A DNA stretch of 64,000 nucleotides, taken from assembly GCF_001591405.1 (NCBI RefSeq), contig NZ_BCUV01000007.1, positions 186,001 to 250,000 on the forward strand. Reading direction: 5' to 3'. Positions 1-64,000 of the stretch are shown here, in pieces (within the stretch, counting starts at the first letter, position 1; every line of letters starts with the position of its first letter). The position numbers were made by a program, and so were the translations under genes. The DNA is from Janibacter terrae NBRC 107853. GTDB taxonomy: Bacteria > Actinomycetota > Actinomycetes > Actinomycetales > Dermatophilaceae. The notes under the pieces are model-generated. The model saw only the letters and a list, made by a program, of their open reading frames with translations. It ran no database searches and was not told where the DNA came from.

Positions 1-64
1 CTGCTCTTTCCACGCCTCGGAACCGCTCGGAAGCACCCTCTTCGTCCCGGGCGATGATGGCCCC

Positions 65-313
65 ATGACCACTGCGACGGGATCACCGGCCGACTGGTAC
101 TTCGAGGACTTCGCCGCCGGGCAGGTCTTCCGCACCCAGGGCCGCACCATCACCGAGGCCGACCTCGTGGGTTTCGCCGGGTGGAGCTGGGACACCAACC
201 CGGTGCACACCGACGCCGTGCACACGGCGGACGGACGCTTCGGCCGGCCCATCGCCCACGGCGTGCTCGGCCTGTCGGTCGCCATGGGCCTGGCCTCCCG
301 CCTGGGCATCTAG
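65..313 (+). pseudogene. MaoC-like dehydratase, N-terminal half only
   Basis: The 82-residue product starts like a MaoC/hot-dog-fold enoyl-CoA hydratase. It has the R-x-I-T-E-x-D-L entry strand, the D43-x-N-P-x-H48 catalytic pair and the GRPIAHGVLGLS helix (about 60-71). Members of this family are usually about 150 residues, so roughly half is missing. The frame ends at a TAG lying in a CTAG (310-313), exactly where a truncated minus-strand gene also ends. I see no clear Shine-Dalgarno before the ATG. It is probably a non-functional remnant left by a deletion; a short functional protein is less likely because the C-terminal strands of the hot-dog fold are gone. Confidence 0.6.
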
Positions 314-402
314 TGGATCCGGTGGGTGGCCGTCTGCACGAAGCGGCTGGTGCTCTCGGCGGTGAGCTCGGCGCTCTGCTCGACGGTGAGTTGTGCGCTC
401 AT
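310..402 (-). pseudogene. alpha/beta-hydrolase N-terminal stub
   Basis: A strong AGGAGG (plus positions 411-416) sits 8 bases before an ATG that opens only 30 codons, ending ...ATHRIH then TAG. The end resembles the first strand of MhpC/HsaD-type alpha/beta hydrolases, where a Tyr and the HGSGPG oxyanion loop would follow. Nothing hydrolase-like follows here because the reading frame runs into the MaoC stub. The intact ribosome-binding site and abrupt stop suggest that a real gene lost its 3' part at the same breakpoint that truncated the MaoC gene. The family assignment rests on few residues and is tentative. Confidence 0.4.
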
Positions 403-520
403 GGGGGATGCCTCCTGGGCAGTGGTGGAACTGGTGTGTGCGTGACGCTAGCCACGCGCGTGCGCGCGCCCCAGAGGAGGTTCCGGCGCCCGGAACCCAC
501 TGGGCCGCCGTGAGCCCACG

Positions 521-573
521 CACGACGAAGGGGGTGGATCCCGGTCGAGCCGGGACACACCCCCTTCGTCGTG
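521..573. terminator. bidirectional terminator with CGAAGGGGG arms
   Basis: A perfect 15-bp inverted repeat (521-535 with 559-573) carries CGAAGGGGG on one arm and CCCCCTTCG on the other. A smaller CCCGG/CCGGG hairpin sits in the loop. It lies 9 bases past the stop codon of the minus-strand transporter gene, so it most likely ends that transcript. No U-run is present, which is common for high-G+C actinobacterial terminators. Confidence 0.75.
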
Positions 574-582
574 GTCGCGGAC

Positions 583-61400: not shown

Positions 61401-62352
61401 GGACGGCATCCAGGACCATGCCCGCGGGCTTGTTGTCGGTGGTGAGGAAGGCGGTGACGACCTTGAGGCGCTTGAGCGCACGGGTCTTCTTCTGCCCCTT
61501 GCCGGTGGCGATGATCTCGCGCAGCTTGTCGGACTCGGCCTCGAGGTCGAAGGTCTCCAGACGCTTCTGGATCGCCGCGGCACCCATGCCGCCCTCGAAG
61601 TACAGACCGAAGCGGTCGCGCATCTCGCGGTAGAGGACCTCGTCGCCCTCGAGGTCCTGGACCTTGAGGTTCTTGAACCGTTCCCAGACCTGGGAGAGGC
61701 GCTCGACCTGCTGGTCGGCACGCTTGCGGATCTGGTTCATCTCGCGCTCGGCGGAGTCGCGGACCTTGCGCTTGGCGTCGGACTTGGCGCCCTCGGCCTC
61801 GAGCTCGGCGATGTCCTTCTCGAGCTTCTGCGCGCGGGTCTCGACGTCCGCGTCGCGGCGGTTCTCGAGCTCCTTCTTCTCGGCCTCGATCTGGGCCTCG
61901 AGCGAGGGCAGGTCGGTGTGTCGCTGGTCCACGTCGACGCTCGTGATCATGTAGGCCGCGAAGTAGATGACCTTCTCGAGGTCCTTCGGGGCCAGGTCGA
62001 GCAGGTACCCCAGGCGCGAGGGGACGCCCTTGAAGTACCAGATGTGGGTGACGGGGGCGGCGAGCTCGATGTGGCCCATCCGCTCACGACGCACGCCGGC
62101 GCGAGTGACCTCGACGCCGCAGCGCTCGCAGATGATGCCCTTGAAGCGGACCCGCTTGTACTTGCCGCAGGAGCACTCCCAGTCCCGCGTCGGACCGAAG
62201 ATCCGCTCGCAGAAGAGGCCCTCCTTCTCAGGCTTGAGGGTGCGGTAGTTGATGGTCTCGGGCTTCTTGACCTCGCCGTGGCTCCAGTTACGGATGTCCT
62301 CCGCGGAGGCCAGACCGATGCGCAGCTCGTCGAAGAAGTTGACGTCCAGCAC
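58474..62352 (-). CDS. rpoC: RNA polymerase beta-prime subunit
   Basis: The 1292-residue subunit carries the catalytic magnesium motif N533-A-D535-F-D537-G-D539. The N-terminal zinc site is in [20 protein letters not shown] and the second in [13 protein letters not shown]. The trigger loop region is [21 protein letters not shown], and the C-terminus carries DIMQGLPRV-like ([16 protein letters not shown]) and lid segments. I chose the GTG at 62352, with AAGGAAG 6 bases upstream, because actinobacterial homologues start [14 protein letters not shown]; 20 further in-frame codons lie upstream. Confidence 0.97.
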
Positions 62353-62445
62353 TTCGTGCTTCCTTCTCTCGTTGTCGAGGATGACTCGATAAGTTCTGTG
62401 GCCCTGGGTCACCGTGAGGGTGACCGTGCGGGCTGTCGAGGGGGT

Positions 62446-62484
62446 CCGGGGGGTCCATGGCCCGCTGGGCCGTGGACCCCCCGG
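62446..62484 (-). other. strong hairpin between rpoB and rpoC
   Basis: Arms 62446-62463 and 62467-62484 pair over 18 positions (CCGGGGGGTCC core) with a single non-Watson-Crick position and a GCT loop. It begins 4 bases after the rpoB stop codon and about 95 bases before the rpoC start. It could be an attenuator, an RNase processing site or an mRNA stabiliser. Confidence 0.65.
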
Positions 62485-62488
62485 AGGG

Positions 62489-64000
62489 TCAGACCTCCTC
62501 GACGCTGCTCGGCTCGCGCCGGGACAGGTCGATGCCGAGCTCCTCGGCCGCGCGGAAGACGTCGTCCTCGTTGTCGCGCATCTCGATGGTGCCGCCCTCA
62601 GAGTTGAGGACCTCCACGTTGAGGCAGAGGCTCTGCATCTCCTTGATGAGCACCTTGAAGGACTCCGGGATACCGGGTTCCGGGATGTTGTCGCCCTTGA
62701 CGATGGCCTCGTAGACCTTGACGCGACCGGTGACGTCGTCGGACTTGATCGTCAGCAGCTCCTGGAGCGCGTAGGAGGCGCCGTAGGCCTCGAGGGCCCA
62801 CACCTCCATCTCGCCGAAGCGCTGGCCGCCGAACTGGGCCTTACCACCGAGCGGCTGCTGGGTGATCATCGAGTACGGCCCCGTGCTGCGCGCGTGGATC
62901 TTGTCGTCCACGAGGTGGTGCAGCTTGAGGATGTACATGTACCCGACGGAGGTCGGGGCCGGGTAGGGGTCGCCGGTGCGGCCGTCGAAGAGCTGCGCCT
63001 TGCCGCTGCTGTCGATCAAGCGAACACCGTCGCGGGTCGGGGTCGTCGAGTCGAGCAGACCGGCGATCTCCTCCTCGCGGGCACCGTCGAAGACGGGGCT
63101 GGCGACACGCGTGTCGGCCGGGGCCTGGCGCGCGTCCTCGGGGATCATCTGGGCCCACTCGGGCGAGCCCTCGATGTCCCAGCCGCGGCTGGCGGCCCAC
63201 CCGAGGTGCAGCTCCATGATCTGCCCGATGTTCATGCGACCGGGGACACCGAGCGGGTTGAGCACGACGTCGACCGGCGTGCCGTCCTCGAGGAAGGGCA
63301 TGTCCTCGACCGGGAGGATCTTGGAGATGACGCCCTTGTTGCCGTGGCGGCCGGCGAGCTTGTCACCGTCGGTGATCTTGCGCTTGTTGGCCACGTAGAC
63401 GCGGACGAGCTGGTTGACGCCCGGGGGCAGCTCGTCGCCCTCGTCCTTGTCGAAGACCTTGACCGCGATGACCGTGCCGGTCTCGCCGTGCGGGACCTTC
63501 ATCGACGTGTCGCGGACCTCACGGGCCTTCTCGCCGAAGATGGCGCGCAGCAGGCGCTCTTCCGGGGTCAGCTCGGTCTCGCCCTTGGGCGTGACCTTGC
63601 CGACGAGCAGGTCGCCGTCGCGGACCTCGGCACCGATGCGGATGATGCCGCGCTCGTCCAGGTCGGCGAGGACGTCCTCGGAGACGTTGGGGATGTCCCG
63701 GGTGATCTCCTCCGGGCCGAGCTTGGTGTCACGGGCGTCGACCTCGTGCTCCTCGATGTGGATCGAGGAGAGGACGTCGTCCTGCACCAGACGCTGGCTG
63801 AGGATGATCGCGTCCTCGTAGTTGTAGCCCTCCCACGGCATGAAGGCGACGAGGAGGTTGCGGCCCAGGGCCATCTCCCCACCGTCGGTCGCCGGACCGT
63901 CGGCGATCAGCTGGCCGGCCTCGACGCGGTCACCCTCGGTGACCATGACGCGCTGGTTGTAGCTGTTGCCCTGGTTGGACCGGGAGAACTTCATCATCTT
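62489..64000 (-). CDS. rpoB: RNA polymerase beta subunit, C-terminal part (5' end outside window)
   Basis: The visible 503 codons are the C-terminal portion of a subunit of about 1160 residues; the start lies beyond the right edge. Landmarks are [60 protein letters not shown] near the active centre, [29 protein letters not shown] and the ending SSVEEV. The rifampicin-resistance region lies upstream of the window. It is followed by rpoC after a 136-base gap with a strong hairpin. Confidence 0.97.

Follow-up and report, generated by a model that had tools for sequence, protein, structure and literature searches.

Why does one short word recur so often in this part of the genome of Janibacter terrae NBRC 107853? 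The window analysed here, by which we mean the whole stretch of 64,000 nucleotides (contig NZ_BCUV01000007.1, positions 186,001 to 250,000), contains 43 exact copies of the 8-mer CGAAGGGG, 25 on the plus strand and 18 on the minus strand, 31 of which read as the 9-mer CGAAGGGGG. The first-pass annotation of the window had counted about 40 copies, with 12 example coordinates that are all correct to within 3 bases, and had placed a role in DNA uptake first among the possible functions. Among the readings that we compared, this one is the best supported: CGAAGGGG is probably a DNA-uptake-sequence-like word, with biased uptake as the likely driving force behind its abundance. The support comes from a sharp word in both orientations, inverted pairs at gene ends, limitation to certain lineages and conservation of the word in variable flanks, together with a second dialect in related genera and the presence of com genes.

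The excess extends far beyond the window. The whole genome (3,576,202 bases in 11 contigs) carries 1,247 + 1,228 = 2,475 copies of CGAAGGGG by strand, compared with 65 + 64 = 129 copies of the reversed word. Further own-genome statistics come from 53 pieces, the window and 52 further stretches, each of 20 kb, which together cover 1.104 Mb of the 3.576 Mb, with loci L001, L014 and L015 excluded before counting. These pieces hold 735 copies, where Markov models of order 3 and order 4 expect 109 and 152, respectively, and 525 copies of CGAAGGGGG, where order 4 expects 36.5. The word is sharp, its one-letter variants lying near background: the ratio of observed to order-3 counts is 6.7 for CGAAGGGG and 0.35–2.6 for the 24 variants, the highest of which reach 2.6, 2.0, 2.0 and 1.8. 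Around the word (first C at +1), G occurs at −1 in 73% of copies, A or G at 0 in 78% and G at +9 in 72%, resulting in an extended consensus of about G-R-CGAAGGGG-G. Outside −1 to +9, every position within 15 bases carries at most 0.18 bits, and CGAAGGGG is therefore not part of a longer repeat. Across the 20-kb stretches (n = 52), the count has a mean of 13.3, a variance of 30.5 and a range of 0–26. A Markov model of order k−2 built on the window only did not return CGAAGGGG among its top words, because the sub-words of CGAAGGGG themselves carry the excess. This model was replaced by low-order Markov models and codon shuffles, both of which leave the excess standing, so that codon and dinucleotide use do not explain it. 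Neither of the two refutations that the first-pass annotation had named, an explanation by codon and dinucleotide use or confinement of the excess to the window, was borne out.

The copies lie both within and between genes, as called by a purpose-written codon-usage script rather than a standard annotator. The 1,073 predicted genes contain 555 copies, 264 in sense and 291 in antisense orientation (p 0.27), where random exchange of synonymous codons inside each gene, done 20 times, leaves means of 32 sense and 88 antisense, 120 in total. For the reversed word, there is no excess over the shuffled genes (34 copies vs 39). Among the 735 sampled copies, 522 are coding singles and 180 are intergenic, and the density per kb is 0.58 for genes and 1.23 for the DNA between them. 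In gaps of 10–600 bp, the density is highest between convergent genes (4.88 per kb), followed by tandem (1.97) and divergent (1.38) arrangements. The peptides DEGG and APFA, which the first-pass annotation had seen recurring at the word, were found 22 and 18 times in the sample, and AKGV is the commonest (23 times).

Close neighbours are arranged in a non-random way. Within 70 bp, opposite-facing neighbours occur 37 times with the G-rich arm first and 14 times in the other order, where random placement expects about 9 of each (51 pairs vs 18), and same-direction neighbours occur 4 times instead of about 18. The inner distance of the intergenic G-first pairs is mostly 8 or 19–30 bases, and a search for an exact hairpin pattern with a 3-base loop gave 0 matches. 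The first-pass annotation had listed five such pairs in the window as terminators. All five are inverted pairs that form long hairpins when folded (z −6.1 to −8.5, with none of 200 shuffles as stable in each case), and this part of the claim holds. The printed flanks of the five hairpins contain no long T run, so the label 'terminator' rests on position and structure. These pairs, and a sixth close pair in reverse order, are as follows:

526..568, minus strand: inverted pair and hairpin by the 3′ end of predicted gene 583-1950 (minus); copies at 526 (+) and 561 (−); z −8.54
27218..27256, minus strand: inverted pair and hairpin near the 3′ end of predicted gene 27283-27984 (minus); copies at 27218 (+) and 27249 (−); z −6.37
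45535..45558, minus strand: inverted pair and hairpin between the genes for ribosomal S17 (45573-45836, minus) and L14 (45095-45463, minus); copies at 45535 (+) and 45551 (−); z −6.12
57938..57978, minus strand: inverted pair and hairpin between predicted genes 57993-58280 and 57622-57903 (minus); copies at 57938 (+) and 57971 (−); z −8.27
58418..58457, minus strand: inverted pair and hairpin past the end of rpoC (58474-62352, minus); copies at 58418 (+) and 58450 (−); z −6.40
17586..17606, no strand assigned: close pair in reverse order inside predicted gene 16650-17903; copies at 17586 (−) and 17599 (+); the relative G003 retains the second only

Both copies of the pairs at 57938..57978 and 58418..58457 are retained in Janibacter limosus, and the pair at 27218..27256 is not retained as a pair in G003. 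Past rpoC in Knoellia sinensis lies a perfect hairpin of 41 bases, with arms GTATGCCG...CGGCATAC, the second of which is the dialect word described below. The hairpin at the end of rpoC is thus built from CGAAGGGG here and from CGGCATAC in Knoellia, apparently in the same role.

The first-pass annotation had also proposed looking at conservation of position in relatives, and the words are indeed retained above 8-mers of the same composition. The positional anchor protein was found in 6 of 19 genomes, so this result rests on G003, the pair G006/G014 and J. limosus. Compared with G003 (88% identical), 22 of 33 words are exact, against 234 of 557 same-composition 8-mers (p 0.006) and 46% of all 8-mers; from G003 towards our genome, the values are 22 of 30 and 235 of 528. 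Between G006 and G014 (96%), 38 of 42 words are retained vs 911 of 1193 same-composition 8-mers (p 0.04), and in the reverse direction 39 of 43 vs 911 of 1187. In J. limosus, all 5 of 5 words are kept vs 64 of 158 8-mers (p 0.01). The ±30 bp flanks of the words are below average identity (81.4% vs 88.5%, and 94.7% vs 96.3%). In these small samples (33, 42 and 5 words), CGAAGGGG is conserved inside permissive surroundings. Alignment of our genome with G014/G006 covered 1.8 kb containing no word, and G088 gave no alignable stretch with G052 or G113. Neisserial DNA uptake sequences (DUS) are described in PMC2397512 as conserved within less conserved flanks and rare in acquired genes, and the retention of CGAAGGGG follows the first of these patterns. 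The single copies in the window are given below as exact matches, with minus-strand copies being the complement on the plus strand and retention judged against the G003 alignment.

2295..2302, plus strand: single CGAAGGGG, changed in G003
3186..3193, minus strand: single CGAAGGGG, kept in G003
3415..3422, plus strand: single CGAAGGGG, kept in G003
3895..3902, minus strand: single CGAAGGGG, kept in G003
4153..4160, plus strand: single CGAAGGGG, kept in G003
5179..5186, minus strand: single CGAAGGGG, kept in G003
5914..5921, plus strand: single CGAAGGGG, changed in G003
6103..6110, plus strand: single CGAAGGGG, kept in G003
8241..8248, plus strand: single CGAAGGGG, kept in G003
12025..12032, minus strand: single CGAAGGGG, kept in G003
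12625..12632, plus strand: single CGAAGGGG, kept in G003
13003..13010, plus strand: single CGAAGGGG, kept in G003
13128..13135, minus strand: single CGAAGGGG, kept in G003
14325..14332, plus strand: single CGAAGGGG, kept in G003
15689..15696, plus strand: single CGAAGGGG, changed in G003
21999..22006, minus strand: single CGAAGGGG, changed in G003
23587..23594, minus strand: single CGAAGGGG, kept in G003
25563..25570, plus strand: single CGAAGGGG, kept in G003
25688..25695, minus strand: single CGAAGGGG, changed in G003
26782..26789, plus strand: single CGAAGGGG, kept in G003
30797..30804, plus strand: single CGAAGGGG, kept in G003
31756..31763, plus strand: single CGAAGGGG, changed in G003
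34683..34690, minus strand: single CGAAGGGG, kept in G003
37554..37561, minus strand: single CGAAGGGG, kept in G003
38229..38236, plus strand: single CGAAGGGG, changed in G003
39731..39738, plus strand: single CGAAGGGG, kept in G003
41150..41157, plus strand: single CGAAGGGG, kept in G003
41297..41304, minus strand: single CGAAGGGG, changed in G003
42546..42553, minus strand: single CGAAGGGG, kept in G003
51161..51168, plus strand: single CGAAGGGG, no relative aligned at the site
60333..60340, plus strand: single CGAAGGGG inside rpoC, kept in J. limosus

The second neisserial pattern, rarity in acquired genes, is matched only in part. Two of the sampled 20-kb stretches, in which 10 open reading frames were scanned, are free of the word. 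One (L023, G000 C7:400001-420000) contains a TniQ/Mu-type transposon and a pyridine-nucleotide oxidoreductase, and the other (L051, G000 C6:250001-270000) V-type ATPase genes and an antiporter-type gene.

Which organisms carry the word? The RpoC protein of the window, with its five Rpb1 domains, is 97% identical to that of Janibacter limosus and 87% to that of Knoellia sinensis, both genera being placed in the Intrasporangiaceae by the NCBI taxonomy. All 16 genomes analysed from this genus, which RpoC identifies as Janibacter, contain 1,198–2,588 copies of CGAAGGGG. Genomes were further drawn from the larger groups of the family (119 genomes, 53 genera) and the order (396 genomes, 20 families). 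In the family draw, an excess of CGAAGGGG is found only in this genus (5/5) and in the genus g38 (3/3, with 2,589–3,180 copies), the rest having at most 396. In the order draw, the 10-mer GCGAAGGGGG reaches 566–1,156 copies in these two genera (3/3 and 2/2) and at most 38 in all other genomes. In g38, the core of the word is unchanged and the +9 position differs somewhat (G in 51% and T in 29% of 352 copies). A midpoint-rooted ComEC tree (33 sequences, 21 genera) places the two genera as sisters (100/99); 11 of its 30 inner branches are open, leaving the deep forks unresolved.

Other members of the family carry a different word. Twenty other genera of the family, each represented by a single stretch of 20 kb, were scanned for over-represented words in an unbiased way. 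CGGCATAC came out as the top 8-mer in 4 of the 20 (g18, g33, g39 and g42) and among the top three in g4 and g16, and one-letter relatives of CGGCATAC led or stood out in other genera. With a threshold of 500 copies that was set after the table was seen, CGGCATAC is abundant in 60 of the 119 genomes and 30 of the 53 genera (at least 500 copies, maximum 4,724, strands about equal); a further 11 genomes have 200–499 copies and the remaining ones fewer. The eight CGAAGGGG genomes contain 7–41 copies of CGGCATAC, and no genome of the family draw has both words in excess. Outside the family (362 drawn genomes), CGGCATAC does not exceed 180 copies in any. Like CGAAGGGG, it is not explained by codon use: nine stretches hold 58 coding copies (27 and 31 on the two strands) vs 4.7 after codon shuffling, as well as 8 close inverted pairs. 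We infer that Knoellia belongs to the family sampled for CGGCATAC.

Neither CGGCATAC nor a strong one-letter relative was found in 8 of the 20 scanned genera (g2, g9, g11, g15, g20, g25, g41 and g26). A g26 genome has 1,062 copies although its stretch did not reveal the word, and a single stretch can thus miss it. Within g26, the counts are uneven (19 in G083, 1,062 in G040 and 3,681 in G109), which suggests that words can be lost or replaced within genera. In single 20-kb stretches, CGGCGTAC, a one-letter relative of CGGCATAC, is over-represented in g24, g40 and g48 (L237, L245 and L248), where codon use accounts for 11 of 47 coding copies, and another such relative, CGGCATCC, in g27 (L240). 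Stretches of g4 and g28 are enriched in CGTCATAC, and that of g28 in CGCCATAC (L230 and L241). The one-letter relatives of CGGCATAC are possible further dialects and are offered as leads only.

Uptake requires a machinery, and the first-pass annotation had suggested a search for com and pil genes; ComEC, ComEA-like and Tad-type genes are all present. All 38 genomes that were searched for ComEC have it. A ComEA-like gene (SLBB and helix-hairpin-helix) adjoins comEC in G013 and G004, and in our genome it adjoins the N-terminal part of comEC. The Tad-type locus of our genome encodes a T2SSE ATPase, two T2SSF proteins and a DUF4244 protein resembling a short pilin, with a weak TadE match just below the cut-off. 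A match to a T2SSE-type (type II/IV secretion) ATPase is present in 118 of 119 genomes and does not separate genera with words from those without. Transformation of Micrococcus luteus depends on comEA/comEC and on tad genes (PMC8467076 and PMC6370729).

How could such a word accumulate? A surface DNA receptor of the uptake machinery would prefer word-bearing fragments, and the preferred DNA would enter through ComEA and ComEC, with the Tad/Flp-type genes presumably linked to this step. Recombination would then replace word-less alleles by word-bearing ones, which the retention data fit. In this way, copies would accumulate and be restored when mutated, a molecular drive that could operate with or without a benefit. 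Modelling indicates that biased uptake alone suffices for word accumulation (PMC7811141). Single copies would settle where coding or intergenic DNA tolerates them, and inverted pairs would end up as hairpin arms where genes end. The preference of the receptor may have shifted in evolution: CGGCATAC is used by 30 of the 53 genera in the family draw, and a switch to CGAAGGGG, or its new adoption, would have taken place in the ancestor that Janibacter shares with its sister genus.

Several observations weigh against an uptake role. The comEC gene of our genome is split into two parts that lie 89 kb apart on the same strand (G000 contig C6, about 460.9–462.5 kb, L192, and 551.4–552.3 kb, L053 and L249), so that the strain may not be competent at present. 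A gene for a large serine recombinase of the phage-integrase type abuts the break, and comEC may be the integration site of a mobile element, comparable to the Listeria comK phage; the split may also be an assembly fault. In the 89 kb that separate the two halves there are 24 words, at 0.27 per kb (genome 0.69), and the genes with the least typical codon use contain 0.51 words per kb vs 0.43–0.76 in the other quintiles, with no clean trend. CGAAGGGG is thus not lost from all foreign-looking DNA. Furthermore, ComEC and T2SSE-type ATPases also occur in genera with neither word, meaning that they permit but do not predict words. Among the 53 genera, 23 have fewer than 500 copies of CGGCATAC, and 21 of these are without CGAAGGGG as well. 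The two words have just their first two letters in common; the dialects of neisserial DUS share a three-letter core (PMC3630211). On the sampled part of contig C7, which carries dnaA at 881 kb, 287 copies of CGAAGGGG point away from dnaA and 241 towards it (54:46, p 0.05). Finally, among the matches listed from the open-access literature, none describes Janibacter or Knoellia as competent.

What else could fill a genome with such a word? A Chi-like role, which the first-pass annotation had considered, would make CGAAGGGG a hot spot where a nuclease of the RecBCD, AdnAB or AddAB type stops degrading DNA and starts recombining it, with words that differ by genus. A short exact word in thousands of copies, lineage-specific words and the retention of the word are all compatible with this. 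However, Chi in other species is typically strand-biased and not paired, whereas the replication orientation here is at most weak (287 vs 241 of 528). Inverted pairs are about three times as frequent as in random placement and same-direction close pairs are depleted, neither of which is expected of a one-way signal; the less conserved flanks match uptake words instead. A Chi-like role therefore fares worse than uptake, and we regard it as quite unlikely. Alternatively, the word could be bound by an abundant protein of structural or nucleoid function, or could serve in segregation like KOPS, matS or Noc sites, with another word used in relatives. Its spread over the whole genome would fit this, as would its density on the dnaA-bearing contig, which does not depend on the distance from dnaA (Spearman −0.20, p 0.27). 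KOPS/SRS words, which orient FtsK/SpoIIIE, are strongly polar from the origin to dif, a bias far from the 54:46 seen on that contig, and matS/Noc-type words mark a chromosome domain, which was not seen there either. A nucleoid-protein site by itself predicts neither hairpin pairs at gene ends nor retention within less conserved flanks, and we consider this group of explanations unlikely. A second, weaker DnaA-family match lies at G000 C10:26396-26707 (L015).

If the inverted pair were a favoured terminator arm, acting at the RNA level, the single copies would be by-products; the density of 4.88 per kb between convergent genes and the hairpins at gene ends agree with this, but 522 of the 735 sampled copies are single and coding, with sense and antisense nearly equal, which an RNA role leaves unexplained. 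The hairpin at the end of rpoC can, moreover, equally be built from CGGCATAC. The antisense copies largely refute this explanation, which we hold to be the least probable of all. A conversion, mutation or homing bias unrelated to uptake, in which for example a nicking enzyme or biased repair makes the copies, would account for a sharp word with high retention and would make a fitness role unnecessary. There is no repeat element around CGAAGGGG, however, and such a bias would have to switch its word between genera and still favour gene ends; we know of no candidate enzyme, and consider this very improbable. The Chi-like, nucleoid and terminator explanations each fail to account for some of the observations.

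Three observations stand apart from these questions. In the own-genome stretches, ATTGCCCTAG (42 both-strand counts) and ATTCCCCTAG (34), which overlap CCCTAGGG, are far above expectation in 1.1 Mb; the counts suggest about 21 and 17 predicted palindromes of the forms CATTGCCCTAGGGCAATG and CATTCCCCTAGGGGAATG, respectively, which are perhaps the sites of a dimeric regulator. In a stretch of genus g36 (L243, G050), AAGCACTC/AAGCACTCC occur 56–57 times in 20 kb, probably as a tandem or CRISPR-like array. An Rfam scan of 144 kb from five sources gave no match.

If CGAAGGGG is an uptake word, its implications reach beyond this strain. Strong uptake preferences for short motifs have been named for two families, the Pasteurellaceae and Neisseriaceae (PMC7811141, 2020), and uptake-word evolution has so far been explained from these two cases, both Gram-negative families. 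None of the matches listed from the open-access literature describes uptake words in Actinobacteria. The present case would thus be new and independent, from another phylum, with dialects of its own and working in a DUS-like manner. On balance, we lean towards a wider proposal: that uptake-word dialects serve as marks of self in the DNA of the whole Gram-positive family to which Janibacter and Knoellia belong. Many genera would use CGGCATAC, Janibacter and its sister genus CGAAGGGG, and others possibly CGNCATAC, CGGCGTAC or CGGCATCC. Self-recognising natural transformation would then have arisen independently a third time, and for the first time in a monoderm phylum. Its receptor would have to be of a new type, for example one on a Tad/Flp-type pilus, or ComEA, and one word would have cleanly replaced another between related genera. 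Natural transformation, which none of the open-access matches listed describes for this family, would also be old and active throughout it, and the words would offer a practical handle for transforming these strains.

How does CGAAGGGG compare with known systems? Oriented octamers of the Chi and KOPS type are likewise over-represented in chromosomes, and CGAAGGGG differs from them in its 54:46 orientation and its inverted pairs. The uptake signal sequences (USS) of Pasteurellaceae have an adjacent AT-rich stretch, which CGAAGGGG lacks, and the host here is monoderm. USS, with PpdA/ComN as the proposed receptor, resemble the present case in having two word types per family, in the enrichment of genomes in the word and in molecular drive as the explanation of its accumulation (PMC12616744 and PMC7811141). 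Transformation in Micrococcus luteus shares the phylum and the gene classes (ComEA-like, ComEC, T2SSE and T2SSF), and differs in that the term 'uptake sequence' is absent from the main text of PMC8467076. The DUS of Neisseriaceae, recognised by the receptor ComP, consist of another word; here, the host is Gram-positive with high G+C, ComP is not expected, and the dialects share almost no core. As described in PMC3630211 and PMC2397512, DUS nevertheless resemble the present case as a short exact word in thousands of copies, with several dialects per family, found in genes and as terminator-associated inverted pairs, and conserved in permissive flanks.

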